A stretch of DNA of 29,230 nt from a virus, in the IMG/VR virus record IMGVR_UViG_3300043446_000627, positions 1-29,230 of that record. One strand, written 5' to 3'. Below, piece by piece: positions 136 through 22,147 of this stretch. The stretch's first letter is position 1. Each line of letters opens with the position of its first letter. The position numbers and the translations under genes were made by a program. The notes below the pieces were generated by a model that saw only the letters and a program-made list of their open reading frames with translations, was not told where the DNA came from and made no database searches.

Positions 136-522
136 CTAACTGTCCTCTAGGGACTCGCCTTCAGGATGGCGGGGGGTTATTTCTTCTATGACAACGTGCA
201 GTAGACCGCCCTTGATTTGAGTTCCTCGAATCATCTCAATGTGGTCTACTTGGAAGTCATCGTCAAACACTCCAGCGTGTTCTAGTGCATCTAAGACCGC
301 TTTGATACGGTTGTCGATGTCGATTTTTCTTTTGTCTCTAGGACGCAGAATTAGTGTTAGTTTCAATTTCTTATCCCCAAATTTAGGAATGTTGTTGTCA
401 ATGACAAATTGGATGACTGCTTCTCTGAACTCTCTGCCGTTTTTGCTGATGATGGTTCTACCGCGAAAGTTGCGCCAGTAGGTGTTCATACTAGGCGGGA
501 ATGGCAGAGTAAAGCTAGTCAT
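136..522 (-). CDS. rusA: RusA-type Holliday junction resolvase
   Basis: This 128-residue protein matches the RusA family in length and motif order. It opens with FPPSMNTYWR, typical of RusA. The catalytic segment RPRDKRKIDIDNRIKAVLDA (residues 61-80) holds Asp68 and Asp70, and the third acidic cluster is at FDDDF (residues 86-90). RusA enzymes are homodimers that cut four-way junctions symmetrically using Mg2+ held by these aspartates, so this one probably resolves recombination or replication intermediates before packaging. The ATG overlaps the stop of the upstream gene (TGATG), with GGAGA just before it, so the two are translated together. It closes a recombination cluster with the SSB-like, RecT-like and YqaJ-like genes upstream. 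All catalytic acids appear present. Confidence 0.93.
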   Translation of the reverse strand: MTSFTLPFPPSMNTYWRNFRGRTIISKNGREFREAVIQFVIDNNIPKFGDKKLKLTLILRPRDKRKIDIDNRIKAVLDALEHAGVFDDDFQVDHIEMIRGTQIKGGLLHVVIEEITPRHPEGESLEDS

Positions 523-797
523 CAGAACGGCACGTCTCCTGCATCAACGTGTCTAACCTCTCTCGGATACTGCTGCTGTTGTTTGTTCCAGTTAGGGTCG
601 TTGATTTTCAGATTGAAATAAGGTCCATGACCAGCATCGTTTTGCCAAGCACCAAAGGTGATTACCTCACCCCTGAACATGAACGTGCCTTTCCAGTCAG
701 GTTCTTTATCGTTCTTCTTAAAAGCGTTCTTTGTCATCCGACCTTTCATCTCAAGTGGAACAAAGGGTGCTTTCTTGGGTTTGTCATCTGTATACAT
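522..797 (-). CDS. Small protein with SSB-like acidic tail, candidate ssDNA-binding protein
   Basis: The call is a 91-residue protein starting MYTDDKPKKAPF. The central part (DWKGTFMFRGEVITFGAW, then GPYFNLKI) reads as alternating beta strands, compatible with an OB-like fold. The C-terminus VDAGDVPF resembles the DDDIPF tail by which bacterial SSB recruits partner proteins. I therefore suggest, without a clear family match, a phage ssDNA-binding protein working with the RecT-like annealase and RusA on either side. The frame stays open to an ATG at 899, but that upstream part is occupied by the winged-helix frame at 784-918. The start at 797 overlaps that gene's stop (ATGTATACAGATGA) and has GGAAAGG about 12 bases upstream. 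A start at 818 is also possible. Confidence 0.6.
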   Translation of the reverse strand: MYTDDKPKKAPFVPLEMKGRMTKNAFKKNDKEPDWKGTFMFRGEVITFGAWQNDAGHGPYFNLKINDPNWNKQQQQYPREVRHVDAGDVPF

Positions 798-918
798 AAC
801 GTGCGTATTCCTTTCCATTTTCTTTAACCATAGTTGTAAGGATGGGATGTCCTTGTTTACGAAGATACTCGATATGTGCTGCAAGCCTGAATGAGCCATA
901 TTTTTGTAATGCGTCCAT
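784..918 (-). CDS. HTH_39-like winged-helix protein, 5' end unclear
   Basis: Read on the minus strand, this frame gives MDALQKYGSFRLAAHIEYL, then RKQGHPILTTMV and KENGKEYARYVYR. That is the core of the small phage winged-helix family HTH_39 (GSxTPxEAL, then FRLAARIxxLRxxG). Similarity continues upstream of the ATG at 918 without a stop: the codons from about 966 read REN, ILNHLQNIGSLTP, which is the missing first helix. No ATG or GTG exists in that extension; it offers only TTG at 945, CTG at 954 or ATT at 957, so the true start is unusual or reached by frameshift from recT (see findings). The stop overlaps the next gene's start. The likely role is DNA binding or regulation inside the recombination cluster. 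Confidence 0.6.
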   Translation of the reverse strand: MDALQKYGSFRLAAHIEYLRKQGHPILTTMVKENGKEYARYVYR

Positions 919-950
919 AGGAGTTAGTGAACCGATATTCTGCAAGTGGT

Positions 951-1799
951 TCAGAATATTCTCTCGTTGGCTTCCATGTCGGCTACGAACTGGGACGCTT
1001 CCGACTTTGGGTTGAGGTTTACCCCAACCTTGGCTAACTCTCCGCGTATCTTGATTTTGTCAAAAGAGCTAAAGTTATCGGTTACCGCCTTGTTTGCTTC
1101 TGCAAAGGCAGCAATCTTCTCGGTGCGTTGCTCGTCAGTTATCTTGGCTGCTTGCATGATTTTGCCGGCTAGTCCAACGTAGGCTTCTATCCACTCTTGG
1201 GGACTGCTGTAGAGGGCGTAGACCTCGCCATCGGGCTTGATGATGGGGTAGTCCCCAGTCGGCTCTTCTATGACCTCTACGGGCTTAATATCCTCAACTA
1301 CGCCCATATGTTTCGGCATAGGGCTATCAAAGTCCATAACCTCTTCTGTGGCGTAGTGACCCAAGATACAAGCAGGATAGATAGAACGAACTGCTCGGCT
1401 GATAACCCTAGCTCTGAGCATATCTTCAGGGTACTTAGACCAGCCTGAACCCTCGCGGTAGATGCCAGCCTGTTTAGCCATCTCGATAGTCCATTCGACT
1501 GTCAGCGTACCGCCCTGTGGGTGCTTGAATGTCCCCTTGACCTTTTTAGGCGTTACCTCGTCCCATTGAACTGAGCCACCGCTAAGTTGGAAACGGGCAA
1601 GGATAGCCTGAGACTTCAGAGCTGGCTTGCCTTGGATGATGTCGTATTCTTGGACAACAGAGGCTGGATGCTTGTTTTCCGCTTGCGCTACAAGCATGAC
1701 AGCCATAACTTGCTCTTTGGATTTGAACCCATAAAAGCCACTCTTGACAATGCTGTCAGCCATGACGGTCATGTCTGATACAGGGATGATGTTACTCAT
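951..1799 (-). CDS. recT: RecT-family single-strand annealing protein
   Basis: At 282 residues this is normal length for RecT-type annealing proteins. The N-terminal half carries the family pattern: KSKEQVMAVMLVAQAENKHP, then QGKPALKSQAILARFQ. Around residues 116-155 comes GSGWSKYPEDMLRARVISRA followed by VRSIYPACILGHYATEEVMD, the conserved RecT core. These proteins anneal complementary single strands produced by a partner exonuclease, here the YqaJ-type nuclease two genes upstream. The ATG at 1799 follows GGAGAAACTAAT, and the box ATAGTTAGGAAT lies just upstream at 1815-1826. The C-terminus is a variable tail ending ANERIF. Its stop lies inside the beginning of the winged-helix frame downstream. 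Confidence 0.88.
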   Translation of the reverse strand: MSNIIPVSDMTVMADSIVKSGFYGFKSKEQVMAVMLVAQAENKHPASVVQEYDIIQGKPALKSQAILARFQLSGGSVQWDEVTPKKVKGTFKHPQGGTLTVEWTIEMAKQAGIYREGSGWSKYPEDMLRARVISRAVRSIYPACILGHYATEEVMDFDSPMPKHMGVVEDIKPVEVIEEPTGDYPIIKPDGEVYALYSSPQEWIEAYVGLAGKIMQAAKITDEQRTEKIAAFAEANKAVTDNFSSFDKIKIRGELAKVGVNLNPKSEASQFVADMEANERIF

Positions 1800-2227: not shown

Positions 2228-3133
2228 TTACCCCTTGTTAAGAAAACGTCTACCAGATGGATACTCACGCTTGAATTGGTTAAACAAGTCAGGCATGGAT
2301 TGCTCAAAGAGTTTGGAATCAAACTTAATGCTTGGCTTTGCTGACTTCCAAGTGGCTAAGACTCTGCCGTCCAAGGTGACCAATTCGCTGTTAACCCCCA
2401 TAAATTTTTGGATTTCTAGGGCTAACTTCTCTTCCTCAGCTTCCCATTTCTTAATCTCTTTCTTAGTGTAGGCAAGGGCTTGGCAAATCTGCTCCATTGA
2501 TTGCGTAGCGGTTATGCTTGTCGGTGCGGATGCTGAGTAGATGAGTTTCGCTTGCTCGGTAGTCTCAGGCTCAAGCGGGAGCTTAGTCTCAACGTGCGCC
2601 CAGTACTTCGCCATATCCTTGATGAGCTGCTCCTTTTGCGCTTCCGCAATGGTGAATCTAAACACTTCAAAGTTTTGTCCACCGAATAAAACAGCCAACA
2701 CAATGTCGTTGATATTGTGGACTGCCGCCTCATGGATGAGTTGCGCCATATCAGCCGCAGGGATGATGTTGGCTTCACTATCGAACTTGTTGCGTACGCT
2801 AGCGTTGTAGTTCTTGACTTCCACAAGTGTTTGCCCGTCAGTCGAGATGAAATCAAAGTGTGACTTGAGCCAAACTTCTTTCGGGTGAGTGAGCGCATAG
2901 TCTGCTTCCTTGAGTTCAATGCCTAGTTTTTGTTGAGCAAGAGTGCCGATTATGGGCTGGAGAACATGACCCATCTGCACCGCCTCAACTTCAGATAAGT
3001 CGGGGCGTTCCATGAGTCCCAGCTTTTGTAGGACAGCATCGTTGCCTCTGCCGTTGGCTGCCATGCGTGAGTCCCCAGACCACCAAGCGGAGTTGCGTAT
3101 CTCTGGTGCGAATTCTGAACGGTCATTAGCCAT
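2228..3133 (-). CDS. YqaJ/lambda-exonuclease-type viral recombinase nuclease
   Basis: This 301-residue protein has the layout of the YqaJ viral recombinase family. NSAWWSGDSRMAANGRGN opens the fold. MGHVLQPIIGTL (residues 54-65) is the first conserved helix. The PD-(D/E)XK active site is seen as HFDFISTDGQTLVEVKNYN, with Asp94, Glu105 and Lys107. Such enzymes degrade one strand of a DNA end, loading a RecT- or Bet-type annealase; the recT gene lies just downstream. The helix motif usually reads GxxxEP; here the acid is replaced by Gln59. About 100 C-terminal residues are charged and helical (ATQSMEQICQALAYTKKEIK). The gene overlaps its upstream neighbour by eight bases. Confidence 0.87.
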   Translation of the reverse strand: MANDRSEFAPEIRNSAWWSGDSRMAANGRGNDAVLQKLGLMERPDLSEVEAVQMGHVLQPIIGTLAQQKLGIELKEADYALTHPKEVWLKSHFDFISTDGQTLVEVKNYNASVRNKFDSEANIIPAADMAQLIHEAAVHNINDIVLAVLFGGQNFEVFRFTIAEAQKEQLIKDMAKYWAHVETKLPLEPETTEQAKLIYSASAPTSITATQSMEQICQALAYTKKEIKKWEAEEEKLALEIQKFMGVNSELVTLDGRVLATWKSAKPSIKFDSKLFEQSMPDLFNQFKREYPSGRRFLNKG

Positions 3134-3413
3134 TGCTTTTCTCCCTCAATGTGGCAATCTGGTCATCCCATTTCAAGCCATTCATGTGTTTCCAACCTTC
3201 TAACTTGTCAGCCAAGAACTTTTCGTTGCCCTTAAACAGCCGTGTGTTAAGTGCCATGTTTGCTACTATCTCCATATCAACAGCGTGTTTACGCACTTCC
3301 TCTGCGTTGCGTTGAATACCAGCTACTAGCGTAAGAATGATTGACTTGAACATATCTGGGTCTTTAGCCCTAAGAGATACTTCTGATAAAAACTTCATGT
3401 CTTCATTTGTCAC
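3126..3413 (-). CDS. Unrecognised 95-residue early protein
   Basis: MTNEDMKFLSEVSLRAKDPD begins a mainly helical, soluble protein with no cysteines and no membrane segment. It contains LTLVAGIQRNAEEVRKHAVD, a likely amphipathic helix, and ends KWDDQIATLREKSNG. It overlaps the start of the exonuclease gene by eight bases and the end of the coiled-coil gene upstream by eleven, so all three are probably translated as a coupled set. I do not recognise the family. The position suggests an accessory role in DNA metabolism, which is inference from context only. Confidence 0.75.
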   Translation of the reverse strand: MTNEDMKFLSEVSLRAKDPDMFKSIILTLVAGIQRNAEEVRKHAVDMEIVANMALNTRLFKGNEKFLADKLEGWKHMNGLKWDDQIATLREKSNG

Positions 3414-3693
3414 GGCTACTCTCCTTAGTTAAGAAATAAACTGCTTCACCCAATGCTTGGGCAACAATCTTCGTGCTTGCGTACAGCTCGACATACTTGT
3501 CTAAATCGTCTTGCAACTGCTCAATCTTGTCGTTGAGTTCTGCCTTGGAGTTGATGCACTTCTTCAAGGCTAGTTCAAGGTTATTAGATTCGTCTTGCAC
3601 TTCCCTGAGAAATTGCTTGTCTTTCTCTGCTTGTGCGAGTAGGTCTTTGATGGTGGCTCTAAGAGCCATATTGGTTTGCAACTTAGCTGGCAT
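3403..3693 (-). CDS. Small coiled-coil protein
   Basis: A 96-residue protein starting MPAKLQTNMALRATIKDLLA. Residues 15-75 form an almost uninterrupted heptad pattern (AQAEKDKQFLREVQDESNN, then ELNDKIEQLQDDLDKYVELY), so it is likely a homo-oligomeric coiled coil. The frame is open to 3774, but the start at 3693 has an excellent ribosome site (GAGGAGG, six bases before ATG), and the longer version would cover the preceding gene. It overlaps both neighbours. No family is recognised; early phage coiled-coil proteins of this size are often adaptors or inhibitors. Confidence 0.75.
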   Translation of the reverse strand: MPAKLQTNMALRATIKDLLAQAEKDKQFLREVQDESNNLELALKKCINSKAELNDKIEQLQDDLDKYVELYASTKIVAQALGEAVYFLTKESSRDK

Positions 3694-3907
3694 CTTGCAC
3701 CTCCTCGGCTTGGTTGAGTTCAAAGAGCTTGCCGTCCATACCGCACTCTGCGTTAGCAACACGCATGGATTCACAGTACTGGTATTTGGCTTCGCCAGTT
3801 ACGAGGTTAATAACCTCTGAGGCTTTGCAACGGTCGTAGTTCGCTATGCTGCTACTTTGTTTAGATGGAATGTGCCACTTACAGTCAGCACAGATTAGTG
3901 GTTTCAT
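3683..3907 (-). CDS. Cysteine-rich small phage protein
   Basis: The 74-residue product begins MKPLICADCKWHIP and has five cysteines (positions 6, 9, 27, 45 and 55), several paired with basic residues (DRCK, YCESMR, ECG). This pattern resembles small zinc-binding proteins often seen in phage early regions, with the closing ECGMDGKLFE segment typical of them. Function is unknown. The start is preceded by AAAGGGG and, further up, by the exact 12-base box ATTCCTAACTAT also seen before recT. Its end overlaps the coiled-coil gene by eleven bases. It may be the first gene of a transcript, given the 74-bp gap upstream. Confidence 0.78.
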   Translation of the reverse strand: MKPLICADCKWHIPSKQSSSIANYDRCKASEVINLVTGEAKYQYCESMRVANAECGMDGKLFELNQAEEVQDAS

Positions 3908-3981: not shown

Positions 3982-4347
3982 TTAATCGGTTTGTCCTTTC
4001 TGATAGTTTGGTTGTGGGTGGGTGTAGAGAGGCTCAATCTTAATTCCATGTTCTTTAGCCAATTCAGCCTTTTCAAGGTCATCACTCAAAACATAAGTTC
4101 CCCAAACTTCTGAAGGTATCCATCGCCACGCCACAGGCTCTTGCTCTACCTTTGGTTGTGCTTTCTTCCCATCGTAAAAGCCACTCATGTAGGCAATGGT
4201 GAGTACGTCAGACTCTTGCTCACGCTCTTTCTCTGCTACCAGTTTGGCAAAGGCTTCAATTTCTTTTGCATGAAGCAAACGCTTGTCGTTGTAGTCAGTT
4301 GGAAATCCAGCCTGTTTAGCCAGTTCAATGATTTCATCTTGTGTCAT
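3982..4347 (-). CDS. Phage protein with EPVAW...PLYTHP module
   Basis: A 121-residue protein. Residues 1-50 are helical (MTQDEIIELAKQAGFPTDYN, then HAKEIEAFAKLVAEKEREQE), a layout common in phage accessory proteins. The C-terminal part runs from QEPVAWRW to IEPLYTHPQPN, a module I recognise from many phage proteins of otherwise different sequence; its function is not known to me. AAAGGG stands five bases before the ATG. The truncated gene at the left end of the window opens with the same EPVAW motif. These modular proteins tend to be exchanged between phages, which fits their place among small early genes. Confidence 0.75.
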   Translation of the reverse strand: MTQDEIIELAKQAGFPTDYNDKRLLHAKEIEAFAKLVAEKEREQESDVLTIAYMSGFYDGKKAQPKVEQEPVAWRWIPSEVWGTYVLSDDLEKAELAKEHGIKIEPLYTHPQPNYQKGQTD

Positions 4348-6154: not shown

Positions 6155-7021
6155 TTACGCCGCTAGGGGTAAGGGTACTATCTCGGCGTTTGATTCGTCC
6201 AAGGCGTTTATGTAATCCGCCGCCTTTTGAGCTAATGCGGCGGCTTTAAATATCGCCTTTGAGTCCTCTTTTAGGACTTTTAACCAGCTTTGCAAGTATC
6301 CGGCATGGCGTAACTCGCCTTGTATGCGGTAATCTTGACAGAGGAAAGCCGCGCCCATTTCAGCAACTAATTCCTCGAAAGCATAGGCGTTATCGCCAAA
6401 GCGTTTGCCAAATACGCGCTTTTCCCTATGCTCCGCGCCCGTCCAATGTACTAACTCATGAAATACGGTTGCATAGTAATTTGACTCAGTTAAAAAGCTA
6501 GCTTTATGCGGCACGTTGATTTTGTCAACGCTTGGAGCATAAAAGGCACTATCGCCGCCATGCGTGATAACAGCGCCGGTTAGCTTGATGCGTAGCTCGG
6601 CGGCTTCAATGGCGTTAAATGGCTTTGTATCGGCGCTAGGTGCTTGGATTGTCACGCCGTCAACTTGACTAGCATTGAATACATAATATGCTTTTAGCAA
6701 GTTATAGCTTTCAATGTCGCCGGTAGCTTTATTCTCTTTTGTGACCGGCGAGTAAAAGACAATCTTAGTACCGCGCTCGCCTTTGCGTACGTTAGCGCCG
6801 ATACTTTGCCATTGTTTAAAGCTAGCCCATACTGGACAATCAAAAGAGTTAACCATGCTCGACAAACCTAGAATGAGCCGGTTTACGCCTTGGTAAGGCT
6901 TTTGTGAGAGAAAGTTTTTATCGGCAGTGCTATCGGTTTTCCAAGGCTTAATCCACGGCGTAGCGCCATTTTCTAATTGCTTGATGATGCTATCGGTTAC
7001 TTCTTGATAGACTGTAGACAT
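6155..7021 (-). CDS. ardC: ArdC-type antirestriction protein (ssDNA-binding plus metallopeptidase domain)
   Basis: The 288-residue protein has both ArdC parts. The N-terminal domain (residues 1-125) begins YQEVTDSIIKQLENGATPWI and contains WKTD, YQGVNRLIL and ANVRKGERGTKIVFY, the ssDNA-binding DUF1738 pattern. The C-terminal domain carries a zinc-peptidase motif, FHELVHWTGAEHR (His188, Glu189, His192), with acidic residues in YAFEELVAEMGAAFL as likely third ligand. Plasmid ArdC protects entering DNA from restriction and binds single strands; here the gene is the first of the leftward early region, the natural place for an anti-defence protein. The start has AAAGGGG and the recurrent box upstream. 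The length is close to the family norm and all motif residues are intact. Confidence 0.92.
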   Translation of the reverse strand: MSTVYQEVTDSIIKQLENGATPWIKPWKTDSTADKNFLSQKPYQGVNRLILGLSSMVNSFDCPVWASFKQWQSIGANVRKGERGTKIVFYSPVTKENKATGDIESYNLLKAYYVFNASQVDGVTIQAPSADTKPFNAIEAAELRIKLTGAVITHGGDSAFYAPSVDKINVPHKASFLTESNYYATVFHELVHWTGAEHREKRVFGKRFGDNAYAFEELVAEMGAAFLCQDYRIQGELRHAGYLQSWLKVLKEDSKAIFKAAALAQKAADYINALDESNAEIVPLPLAA

Positions 7022-8438: not shown

Positions 8439-10188
8439 CTTACAACAGTTCTATAAGTTCTGTGCCAACTTGAAGATTGAGACTAAGGAGCAAGGTCTAA
8501 GGAACATGGACCAACTTCTTGGAACTCAGACCTATGTCATGGAGGAAATCTCCTCTGGCTTGGCTAACGGGATTCACTTCTTTGTTATCTTAAAAGGGCG
8601 ACAGCTAGGGATTACGACTATAAGTCTAGCCTTAGACCTTTATTGGCATTTCACTAACGCTGGTCTTGGAGGGACACTTGTTACAGACACCGAAGAAAAC
8701 CGAGATATGTTCAGAGGAACACTCGGTGCATACATGGATGGACTCCCAAAAGAGTACAAAATCCCCATGCTTGCCCACAACAGAAACTCTCTGTCCCTCA
8801 AAAACAGAAGCAGAATCTTCTACCAAGTCGCTGGACTTAGAGCAAAGGGTTCTCTCGGACGAGGAAAAGGCATCACATTTCTTCACGGCACAGAAACGTC
8901 TTCTTGGGGTGACGAGGAAGGTCTGGCTTCCCTCTTAGCCTCTCTTGCCGAGACAAACCCTGAACGCCTCTACATCTTTGAATCTACCGCCCGTGGCTTC
9001 AATATGTTCCATGAGATGTATACGACTGCTAAACGGGCTAGAACTCAGAAAGCAATCTTCTGTGGTTGGTGGCGCAATGAGTTCTACTCTGCTGACCCAG
9101 ACTCAGACATCTACAAAGTCTATTGGGATGGGAAGTTGACCGTAGAGGAGAAGGAATGGACAAAGGACATCAAGAAGCTCTACAACTTTGAAATCAACTC
9201 AAGACAAATGGCTTGGTGGCGTTGGAAGATGTTGGAAGGCATCAAGGACGAGAGCCTGATGTACCAAGAGTTCCCACCGACTGAGGACTATGCCTTTGTG
9301 ATGACTGGCACATCCTTCTTCTCTATTGCTCGCTGTACGGATGCAGCCAAGATTTCTAAGAAGATAACCTACGACAACTACCGCTATGTCTTTGGGGCTA
9401 ACTTTCAAGACACCCAAGTAGTCAAGTCAACTGAGCGCTTGGCAAGCCTTAAAGTGTGGGAAGAACCTGTGGACACCGCCTACTATGTCATAGGCGCAGA
9501 CCCCGCTTACGGGTCAAGCGACTGGGCTGACCGCTTCTGTATTCAGGTCTATCGTTGCTACTCTGACGGCATGGAACAAGTCGCTGCCTTTGCTACCTCT
9601 GAACTCAACACCTACCAGTTCGCTTGGGTAATTGCTCACCTTGCTGGCGCATACAAGAACTCAACCTTGAACCTTGAGGTGAATGGTCCGGGGCAAGCGG
9701 TTATCAATGAACTACGCAACTTGAAGCGCCAAGCGGCTGCTATGGCTGGCGAGATTGGCAGACAGCTCATGGATGTCTACGGTTCAATGTCCAACTACAT
9801 CTGGCGCAGAAACGACACGATGGGAGGACCATCCAACTCTATTGGCTGGCTGACAACCGTGCAGACCAAAGAGCGGATGCTCTCCTACATGAAGGATTAC
9901 TTTGAGCGCGGAATGATGGCGGTCTACGACATGGAAACCCTTGAAGAGATGAAGACCATTACCAGAGAGGGCGGGTCAATAGCCGCTTCTGGTCGCAACA
10001 AGGACGATAGGGTTATTGCCTCTGCTTTGGCAAGCGCAGCCTATGCCGAGCAGTTGCAACCTCGCCTTATCAACATGAAGATTAGCCGAGCCGTCTCTAG
10101 AGCCTTAGAAGACAAGACCCCTGAAGAGGTGGCTGTCGGTCGCAATGTCTCCGAGTACCTCAAACGGATTGGCGTGTATGGAACATAA
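8428..10188 (+). CDS. terL: Terminase large subunit (DNA-packaging ATPase and nuclease)
   Basis: At 586 residues the protein is of normal TerL length and has both domains. The ATPase shows an atypical Walker A, LKGRQLGITTIS (residues 55-66), a Walker B region GITFLHGTETSSW (148-160) with the catalytic acid, and the coupling motif IFESTARG (183-190). The nuclease has its three metal-binding acids at GADPAYGSSDWADRF (Asp358), NLEVNGPGQ (Glu417) and NKDDRVIASAL (Asp526 and Asp527). It moves DNA into the prohead through the portal and cuts the concatemer. The ATG lies inside the end of the upstream gene. The following gene starts within its last codons. Confidence 0.96.
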   Translation: MKFNLQQFYKFCANLKIETKEQGLRNMDQLLGTQTYVMEEISSGLANGIHFFVILKGRQLGITTISLALDLYWHFTNAGLGGTLVTDTEENRDMFRGTLGAYMDGLPKEYKIPMLAHNRNSLSLKNRSRIFYQVAGLRAKGSLGRGKGITFLHGTETSSWGDEEGLASLLASLAETNPERLYIFESTARGFNMFHEMYTTAKRARTQKAIFCGWWRNEFYSADPDSDIYKVYWDGKLTVEEKEWTKDIKKLYNFEINSRQMAWWRWKMLEGIKDESLMYQEFPPTEDYAFVMTGTSFFSIARCTDAAKISKKITYDNYRYVFGANFQDTQVVKSTERLASLKVWEEPVDTAYYVIGADPAYGSSDWADRFCIQVYRCYSDGMEQVAAFATSELNTYQFAWVIAHLAGAYKNSTLNLEVNGPGQAVINELRNLKRQAAAMAGEIGRQLMDVYGSMSNYIWRRNDTMGGPSNSIGWLTTVQTKERMLSYMKDYFERGMMAVYDMETLEEMKTITREGGSIAASGRNKDDRVIASALASAAYAEQLQPRLINMKISRAVSRALEDKTPEEVAVGRNVSEYLKRIGVYGT

Positions 10189-10978
10189 GGACTTAACCGT
10201 TGTTGCAATCTACGGCAACGGGGACGGCTCGCAAGCCATACCCGCCTTGAAGCACAGCGTTGACCAACTCTCTGGGTCATGGGGGCTACTGCTCTCTACT
10301 GAGCGCCCTGCCGACCTACCGCCAAACATTGTGTGGGAAAAGATTGGGGCGCTGTCCTATCAACAGTATTCAGTCTTTGTCATGCACAGCCTTCATTCAT
10401 TCATCAAGACCGATTACTGCCTGATTGTCCAAGACGATGGTTGGGTGTTAAATGGGCAGAACTTCAAACCCAATTACTACAAGTACGACTACATTGGCGC
10501 ACCTTGCCATGCAGCCATTGTCGGCAACGAATTACAACTCGGCTTTGCTTGGCGGGACAACCCAGAGCGCATAGTTATCCAAAACGGGGGATTGAGCCTG
10601 AGAAGCAAGCGTTTTTTGGAAGCGCCCAACAAGTATGGACTCACACACATCCCTGCTCTTGACCAACGCCTATGGAATGAGGATGTTCAGTTGACTGGCA
10701 TCTATCGCCCTATCCTAGAAGTCTATGGATTGAAGTTTGCTCCTGAGTCTGTAGCAAAACAGTTTGCTATTGAGTACCTTGCCCCAGACTTCCATGACGA
10801 TTTAGACCTGACAAACCTTTTTGGACATCACGCCTCTTCTCGCAAGTTGGTCAGCCCCAACCATGTGGTTGTTGACTCGGACTCCTTAGAGTCATACCGA
10901 GAAGCCGATGTGCTTGCACATTTTCAAAATCTTGGATACACCGTAGAGTATGTTGCTAGTAACCATACCCAAGCGTGA
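10178..10978 (+). CDS. DUF5672 family, glycosyltransferase-like protein
   Basis: The 266-residue protein shows the DUF5672 pattern. After KDLTVVAIYGNGDG at the N-terminus come the acidic motif LIVQDDGWVLNG, then YKYDYIGAPCHA, then the signature NGGLSLRSKRFLEAPNK. Members are GT-A-like sugar transferases in bacterial and phage glycan loci; QDDG is the likely metal and nucleotide-sugar site. In a packaging and head operon it could glycosylate virion proteins or host surface sugars; the acceptor cannot be told. The ATG at 10178 overlaps the terminase stop; an in-frame ATG at 10145 would reach further into terL and is less likely. The family assignment is fairly sure, the activity is inferred. 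Confidence 0.82.
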   Translation: MEHKDLTVVAIYGNGDGSQAIPALKHSVDQLSGSWGLLLSTERPADLPPNIVWEKIGALSYQQYSVFVMHSLHSFIKTDYCLIVQDDGWVLNGQNFKPNYYKYDYIGAPCHAAIVGNELQLGFAWRDNPERIVIQNGGLSLRSKRFLEAPNKYGLTHIPALDQRLWNEDVQLTGIYRPILEVYGLKFAPESVAKQFAIEYLAPDFHDDLDLTNLFGHHASSRKLVSPNHVVVDSDSLESYREADVLAHFQNLGYTVEYVASNHTQA

Positions 10979-21363: not shown

Positions 21364-21692
21364 TGGGACTTAATGCCTTTACTAAAACTGGCAACACCGT
21401 TGCATTTGTTGCAAATGTGGCTGCACCAACGGCTGTTCAATGCTTGTCCACTACGATTGGTGGCAACCAATACCGCATCATTAACTCTGGCTCTGTTGTC
21501 GTATTCCTTGGTTACGGCACAAGCGCAAGTGATGCTGCCAACAACTGTGCGGTTGTATCGACTACAGGACCATCCTTCCCGCTACTTGCTGGAACTGATG
21601 AGATTCTTACTTTTGTGCCAAACGCTTACTTTACGGGCATTACGGCTAGTGGCAACGCCACTATCTATATCACGCCCGGTGATGGGCTTTGA
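21363..21692 (+). CDS. Small beta-rich virion protein after the fibre
   Basis: The 109 residues (MGLNAFTKTGNTVAFVANVA through GGNQYRIINSGSVVVFLGYG) form strands rich in Thr, Ala and Val. The start overlaps the fibre stop by one base (TAATG), so it is coupled. Its size and composition resemble fibre-associated or decoration proteins. GC content returns to the window norm directly at the boundary with the AT-rich fibre. The 3' end overlaps the convergent HNH gene by 28 bases. Confidence 0.68.
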   Translation: MGLNAFTKTGNTVAFVANVAAPTAVQCLSTTIGGNQYRIINSGSVVVFLGYGTSASDAANNCAVVSTTGPSFPLLAGTDEILTFVPNAYFTGITASGNATIYITPGDGL

Positions 21693-22147
21693 ACTAAAGT
21701 ATTACACCATGATTTATAGCCCAAATGTTCAATATGGAGTTGATTGTGATGTTGCTGGCATAGCCACGTCACAACAAGTTTCATATCTTGGGCGTATGAA
21801 GAGTGGTGTGCTTGCCCAGTTTCTCCGCAAACAAAGCATGGCTCTTTTTGGATTTTTCCCGTCCTCAATGCGTGTCGAACAGCATTTTTTGCAGATTCTC
21901 TTGTTGGGTCACGCTTGTACCGCTTGGCTGACAACTTGCCTTTCTCGCTTTGTTTGTACCTTTTTTTGTTTTCTGGGTACTGTTTCTCTCTCTTCCTTGC
22001 TTCTTTTCCAGATTCTGTTTTTCTATACTCTTGGTTCTTTTTCTGTACGCAAATTTTGCATTGCTTTAAAAGACCATCGGGCATACCTCGGTTTCGGAAA
22101 AATTCAGTCAAAGGCTTGGCTTGCTGACAGCAGTTACAAGTTTTCAT
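21665..22147 (-). CDS. HNH-type (zinc finger) endonuclease, inserted on the opposite strand
   Basis: The 160-residue protein has two zinc sites. The N-terminal one is CNCC (4-7) with CKIC (30-33). The C-terminal one reads CFVCGETGQAHHSSYAQD (104-121), then WLCQQHHNQLH (129-139), the phage HNH / endonuclease VII-like pattern with His114 and His115 as likely catalytic pair. The middle is a very basic linker (KRYKQSEKGKLSAKRYKRDP) for DNA contact. It is the only minus-strand gene in the late arm. AAGGGG precedes its ATG. Freestanding HNH genes move as homing endonucleases, cutting phages that lack them; the intact motifs suggest it is active. The last twelve residues lie in the overlap with the convergent gene. 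Confidence 0.87.
   Translation of the reverse strand: MKTCNCCQQAKPLTEFFRNRGMPDGLLKQCKICVQKKNQEYRKTESGKEARKREKQYPENKKRYKQSEKGKLSAKRYKRDPTRESAKNAVRHALRTGKIQKEPCFVCGETGQAHHSSYAQDMKLVVTWLCQQHHNQLHIEHLGYKSWCNTLVQSPSPGVI

Follow-up and report, generated by a model that had tools for sequence, protein, structure and literature searches.

Programmed -1 ribosomal frameshifting is already known, and the phage examples that dominate the surveys, as far as these were available to us, lie in tail genes. OrfA of IS3/IS911 carries a helix-turn-helix (HTH), which is N-terminal in OrfAB. The OrfAB transposases depend on -1 heptamers accompanied by stimulators (PMC4066793, from the part available), and in them DNA-transaction and HTH parts are fused. 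In Escherichia coli dnaX, which encodes tau and gamma, a slippery heptamer is combined with an upstream Shine-Dalgarno (SD)-like element and a downstream hairpin, and two forms of one DNA-transaction protein result; in phage lambda G/GT a -1 frameshift near the 3' end of the gene gives a minor product that is extended at the C-terminus (both from the accessible part of PMC5009743).

Here we describe a phage recT gene with features of each of these systems. It lies in the virus contig IMGVR_UViG_3300043446_000627, and the window analysed is the whole of this record, positions 1 to 29,230 (29,230 bases). The locus shares with dnaX the heptamer and the upstream SD-like element, one clade of relatives has an 11-bp hairpin to match that downstream of the dnaX heptamer, and here too two forms of one DNA-transaction protein are predicted. 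The dnaX frameshift, as described in the material available, yields the shorter product, whereas that in recT would yield the longer one, which bears a winged helix. The main recT heptamer is C CCA AAG, in contrast to dnaX, and A AAA AAG is confined to the L096/L203-L207 clade. Unlike lambda G/GT the gene belongs to recombination and not to the tail, and the extension is an HTH_39 winged helix; unlike OrfAB the winged helix is C-terminal and is carried on an annealase. No frameshift is described for phage RecT/Red beta annealases in the literature searched. Nor was recT or annealase frameshifting found in the frameshifting literature, that is in the available portions of PMC3711429, PMC10885494, PMC9512822 and PMC10299305 among others, and in PMC4066793 apart from its supplementary tables (five prophage clusters). 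Within that literature a recT or annealase gene would be new as a carrier of such a signal.

Organization of the recT locus

Profile matches identify the recT neighbourhood in the window as a RecE/YqaJ-like exonuclease, recT, an SSB-like gene and RusA. The relevant features are as follows.

951..1799, minus strand: recT, 0 frame, 282 amino acids, TGA at 951-953; RecT-like match to phrog_561
1022..1025, minus strand: SD-like GGGG at 10 nt upstream of the heptamer; its best anti-SD pairing over 8 nt is -6.1 kcal/mol
1005..1011, minus strand: putative slippery heptamer C CCA AAG, in recT-frame phasing
784..1011, minus strand: -1-frame extension, 75 codons with CCC AAA of the heptamer counted in, terminated by TGA at 784-786
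793..972, minus strand: HTH_39 winged-helix domain, extension residues 14-73, from Pfam and AlphaFold2
951..1011, minus strand: dual-coding overlap from the heptamer to the recT stop, with constraint on the HTH frame and near neutrality of the recT frame
522..899, minus strand: SSB-like gene, next in the operon after recT; phrog_18154, E 1.1e-4

The true start of the SSB-like gene is probably the ATG at 797. Assignment of the 282-residue product as a putative RecT-like single-stranded DNA annealing protein, and with it the likeness to phage RecT/Red beta, rests on the PHROG match (phrog_561, E 2.8e-22); in contrast to those annealases its Pfam RecT score of 21.6 bits is below the curated cut-off of 24.

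The HTH frame is -1 relative to recT and is open from 1059 to the TGA at 784-786. A preliminary description of this DNA had recognized an HTH_39-type winged helix in the minus-strand frame at 784-966, and profile searches agree (PF14090 HTH_39, E 4.2e-10 and 39.8-40.5 bits against a curated cut-off of 21.3; phrog_4973, E 1.3e-16). The sequence it gave for the 3' end of recT is also correct. The first ATG of the frame is at 918, as then reported, to which we add an in-frame TTG at 945. The homologous part does begin upstream of that ATG, but further upstream than the suggested position of about 966, since the Pfam domain starts at extension residue 14, near base 972; conservation of the HTH frame in the window reaches back to about 1011, at the C CCA AAG heptamer. 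Likewise a -1 shift that creates a RecT-HTH fusion is strongly supported as a type of event, although not at the site first proposed. That site, GAG AGA (965-960), is rejected because it is not a slippery motif and because conservation of the HTH frame extends 5' of it; the supported site, C CCA AAG (1011-1005), is 46 nt upstream.

Distribution among environmental phages

A 61-residue HTH query found 39 loci in IMG/VR and a recT query found 80. Among the latter, 47 have the HTH in the -1 frame; a further 29 are without HTH, three are cut by a contig end and one is broken. Close relatives, and also L033-L036, show conservation of the HTH frame 5' of the recT stop (SR-x-G-[ST]-Q-R), and this stretch holds no ATG, GTG or TTG in any of them. 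The other possibility raised at the outset, relatives that start at an ATG equivalent to 918 and lack the upstream helix, was not encountered, and all 32 members of the alignment match HTH_39 with E <= 0.001.

A profile of the extension, A1, matched at least 570 candidates, of which the best 80 were used. Among these, 57 loci were classified; CCCAAAR stands at the start of the conserved block in all 57, and recT is upstream in the expected frame in 56, the exception being L190 at a contig edge. Since the A1 query contained the Pro-Lys linker and only the best 80 of at least 570 matches were used, the scan was repeated with a query starting at GTQ. This linker-free scan gave 80 loci, with the heptamer present in 72, absent in seven and one locus truncated.

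The combined set consists of 106 loci, the window and 105 other records; these come from many metagenomes, and RecT identity falls to about 42-45%. The RecT sequences form 43, 26 and 13 clusters at 90%, 80% and 70% identity, respectively. Only loci with a heptamer of the kinds listed below were admitted to this set, but before that selection all 47 HTH-carrying recT loci and all 57 classified A1 loci had the heptamer. Outside the count are L040/L113 (one contig, in which indels break both frames), L190 (heptamer present, no recT upstream of it at the contig edge), L071, L077 and L112 (where the contig ends within recT), L037-L039 (HTH genes that stand alone) and duplicates of a single contig such as L120-L138, L179, L184 and L198. 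Recurring as it does in 47 of the 80 recT loci and in many further contigs, the -1 arrangement of recT and HTH is more than chance.

A base wrongly gained or lost in sequencing or assembly could make one continuous recT-HTH gene look like this in any one contig, and the preliminary description had allowed for a single-base assembly error. The relatives refute this. The error is excluded: recT and HTH stand in this -1 relation, and the stop codon is retained, in the 105 other records as well, and an in-frame RecT-HTH fusion was seen at none of the loci classified in the recT, A1, further and linker-free scans; we give this explanation practically no weight.

All cases are metagenomic IMG/VR contigs with the exception of MW202825, the sole GenBank case found, which is itself metagenomic and flagged UNVERIFIED_CONTAM. 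The HTH gene of this entry (L117, MW202825.1, 3346-3555) is annotated only from its first ATG, at 3442. In a second entry, MW202753.1 (L118), the recT at 2792-3806 is without any annotation. No cultured phage with the -1 arrangement was found. The phage collection yielded two recT records close to that of the window, both of metagenomic origin and one of them with the HTH, but no DNA-level match to window positions 784-989. A scan of genome contigs for prophage or genome cases returned three distant recT loci, all of which lack the HTH and have no heptamer close to the end.

The candidate slippery heptamer

Where the HTH frame opens, the 106 loci carry a canonical X_XXY_YYZ heptamer, CCCAAAG in 101, CCCAAAA in four and AAAAAAG in one. 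The 47 HTH carriers of the recT scan have C CCA AAG, except for C CCA AAA in L073 and A AAA AAG in L096, at 25-58 nt upstream of the recT stop. L203-L207 have AAAAAAG in five of five, and in three of these the HTH frame opens just two codons before the heptamer. Among heptamers tested in E. coli, C_CC.A_AA.G ranked first in -1 frameshifting, which reached 54% when the IS3 pseudoknot was present, and A_AA.A_AA.G was within the top three, so that on the part of PMC4066793 available to us CCCAAAG and AAAAAAG are among the best motifs known.

The stop codon that bounds the HTH frame restricts the point at which ribosomes could change frame. It lies no more than 20 codons upstream of the heptamer in 97 of the 106 loci and abuts it in nine. 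In L083-L086 it touches the heptamer and in L073 and L080 it is one or two codons away, and a switch of frame elsewhere is for this reason hardly possible in these loci.

The base preceding CCA is C in 42 of the 43 cluster representatives, in a codon that spans 11 different amino acids, and the proline codon itself is CCA in 42 of the 43. Outside the heptamer the same genes have C at 26% of wobble positions and use CCA for 33% of prolines, and just two of 40 other Pro-Lys pairs are encoded as C CCA AAR. The heptamer is absent from the last 100 nt of all 30 recT relatives that lack the HTH. Four loci (L153, L154, L156 and L158) have tandem heptamers, CCCAAAA and then CCCAAAG, 9 nt apart, with the spacing of the SD-like element suited to the first.

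Candidate stimulatory elements

The SD spacing published for -1 stimulation is 9-14 nt (PMC5009743, in the section available). In the 43 representatives, windows of 8 nt whose 3' edge lies 6-10 nt from the start of the heptamer have a mean anti-SD pairing energy of -6.1 to -7.4 kcal/mol, and a ΔG of -4 or lower is reached in 88-91% of them. A second, smaller peak, 25-30 nt 5' of the heptamer, involves up to 33% of the representatives. The SD core occupies the conserved position in 38 of the 43, compared with 13.1% of windows taken in frame from these genes, and is absent in five; glycine codons at the element are GGR in 79% of instances against 32%. The element in the window is modest, since at -6.1 kcal/mol 15% of control blocks are equally good.

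On the 3' side of the heptamer the 43 representatives display a mean z of -0.72, with values of +0.07 and +0.08 in two control regions. Only in the L080/L172/L175/L191/L197 clade is a hairpin clear, the one of 11 bp, in which 98.9% of cells are paired, with one compensatory change only and with 57 of 500 shuffles matching it. The L072-like group retains a GUCCC/GGGAC pairing, which is uninformative because it never varies. No conserved downstream RNA structure was found in the clade of the window, where the signal is weak (-1.36 kcal/mol).

Coding selection and potential start codons

Selection was assessed with 54 unique sequences having a 58-nt overlap, which make up 312 pairs of 75-97% identity; both pairs and loci are phylogenetically dependent. 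In the 60 nt upstream of the heptamer the ratio of observed to expected synonymous changes is 2.78 for the recT frame and 0.68 for the HTH frame. Within the overlap the values become 1.19 and 2.87, and beyond the recT stop 0.58 and 3.98. These ratios suggest that the RecT tail is nearly free after the slip and that constraint on the HTH frame begins at the slip. A frame with no start codon and an out-of-frame junction might be taken for a decaying remnant, the pseudogene of a former fusion. The substitution pattern contradicts this, given strong purifying selection with the synonymous ratio of 3.98 in the HTH frame and an amino-acid identity of 0.936 in the HTH-only part, and we consider decay scarcely credible.

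A separate winged-helix protein might instead be made by internal initiation, or by termination and reinitiation, at an unusual start codon close to the end of recT. The window offers a CTG overlapping the TGA (951-954), an ATT at 957 and the TTG at 945, and the preliminary description had proposed starts of these three kinds. The geometry of the overlapping CTG resembles that of ATGA coupling, and the overlapping codon is in fact ATG in eight of the 106 loci (L145, L151, L152, L167, L168, L176, L177 and L181). The L284 clade (L284-L300, 17 loci) likewise combines ATGA at the recT stop with a retained heptamer, the L276 clade has an ATG just 3' of the recT stop, and some HTH_39 genes (L037-L039, L304 and L305) stand alone and have an ATG of their own. 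However, a protein initiated at such positions would be without the conserved linker and would lack the beginning of the Pfam domain. In 103 of the 106 loci no ATG, GTG or TTG occurs from the point where the HTH frame opens as far as the Q of GTQ. Selection on the HTH frame sets in at the heptamer, 58 nt 5' of the stop, and not at the CTG or TTG; the codon across the recT stop is TTA, CTA, GTA or ATA in 27 of the 106 loci, and both the heptamer and the SD-like element would be left unexplained. As the main route to the winged helix a separate start is therefore improbable.

Initiation may nevertheless play a part in some lineages. The L284 group and the eight loci named above may produce a free winged helix besides the fusion. 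A single clade, consisting of L276-L280, L282 and L283 and accounting for seven of the 80 linker-free loci, has the HTH in the -1 frame with no X_XXY_YYZ heptamer. CCC CAA GAG TCA AAG is found in its place; there is also a strong AGGAGG, and an ATG follows the recT stop. This clade may have changed to reinitiation or may use the A_AAG tetramer.

A programmed -1 ribosomal frameshift in phage recT very probably explains the hidden HTH frame. Comparison of the loci shows a conserved heptamer of the slippery type, an SD-like element at the right spacing for stimulation, a switch in apparent selection and no usable start. Ribosomes would translate recT from 1799, and a fraction would pause at the SD-like stretch near the 3' end. 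On C CCA AAG (1011-1005, minus strand) the paused ribosomes would re-pair from CCA AAG to CCC AAA, and those that slip would read 73 more codons in the -1 frame, up to the TGA at 784-786.

Predicted products and structural models

The standard reading gives 282 amino acids. The predicted slippage product has 338, of which 265 are RecT residues and 73 are read in the new frame. We infer two products, a 282-residue RecT with a short dispensable tail and a 338-residue RecT with the winged helix on a flexible linker.

The AlphaFold2 model of the extension is a winged helix of the order H-H-H-E-E with a mean pLDDT of 87. Residues 1-10 probably form a flexible linker, since their pLDDT averages about 50. 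The best Foldseek match is Stf76 of pSSVx (TM 0.67, E 6.1e-3), followed by the winged helices of TFIIE, PadR and ROK, all with E > 0.001. The extension has 12 Lys and Arg residues to five Asp and Glu. The domain that it would add to RecT is probably DNA-binding.

In the RecT model a helical region at 200-257 precedes the slip and residues 265-281, which follow it, are of low confidence. The slip falls in the tail after 200-257, within this low-confidence segment, so the model suggests that fusion should not disturb the RecT fold. The pTM of the model is 0.37, and a fold search places the A118 RecT (7ub2) only at rank 50 with E 2.1. Compared with PDB sequences, the RecT alignment gave no match and the HTH alignment matches at chance level only.

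Stand-alone homologues and possible function

Stand-alone HTH_39 proteins of phages (MW202722, CSP3, CRP-227 and 587AP2) are 42-52% identical to the domain in the window and, unlike the start-less HTH frame there, have their own annotated start. Their neighbours are genes of replication and recombination. In Roseobacter phage CRP-227 the gene adjoins that for a primase, in Burkholderia phage CSP3 it adjoins initiator and DnaC-like genes, in Mannheimia phage 587AP2 a helicase loader is one gene on, and in MW202722 it adjoins an exonuclease-RecT operon. In IMG/VR the 12 loci related to the HTH of MW202825, and those related to the HTH of L039, have no recT, and most are stand-alone with their own ATG. 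In MW202722.1 (L119) a gene at 4055-4288 annotated as PrtN-like has its own ATG and overlaps the 3' end of a different RecT.

What might the longer protein do? RecT annealases act as oligomers, and slippage would therefore set a sub-stoichiometric dose of winged-helix-tagged subunits in mixed RecT oligomers. By binding DNA or a replication partner, the winged helix could then bring the annealase to the phage replication machinery. We favour a role in bringing RecT to DNA or replication partners because the stand-alone HTH_39 genes adjoin replication or exonuclease-RecT genes, and offer sub-stoichiometric tagging of this kind as a tentative proposal that may well prove incomplete or wrong. There is an analogy in dnaX, where frameshifting gives two subunit forms of one clamp loader, which the recT products might parallel.

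Even with a genuine frameshift, the winged helix could instead act in autoregulation, as a repressor of the recombination operon, or in docking of the exonuclease or the SSB-like protein, rather than in taking RecT to replication sites. Winged helices are typical of repressors and, as noted, the Foldseek neighbours include PadR and ROK (all E > 0.001). Partner docking through RecT helices 200-257 would not need a frameshift, however, because these precede the slip and are present in both products. We regard repression or docking as possible, while not expecting it.

Beyond tagging as such, frameshifting might be a dosage device for recombination, which sets the fraction of RecT that is tagged and addresses mixed rings or filaments to a DNA site or primosome. 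We think this rather unlikely, but if it were true such mixed RecT rings or filaments would couple single-strand annealing to recombination-dependent replication, and in the ATGA clades (the groups of L284 and L167) free winged helix would be released as well and act as a second signal. It would become directly testable whether annealases depend on untagged and tagged subunits being mixed in a defined proportion. The frameshift, if real, is a conserved one in a recombination gene, present in at least 43 RecT clusters of environmental phages, and would place a hidden domain on an annealase of the recombineering type, one that gene callers miss or shorten, as in MW202825.

Three other open reading frames of the window deserve mention. 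That at 6155-7021 (minus strand) encodes an ArdC-like anti-restriction protein (ArdcN, E 1e-32; MPTase-PolyVal, E 3.5e-47). A Cys/His-rich reading frame of 160 amino acids at 21665-22147 (minus strand), on the opposite strand within the tail-gene region, has no Pfam match and by eye resembles an HNH-type endonuclease. The third, at 10145-10978 (plus strand), precedes the portal gene and encodes a DUF5672 protein (E 3.9e-15).
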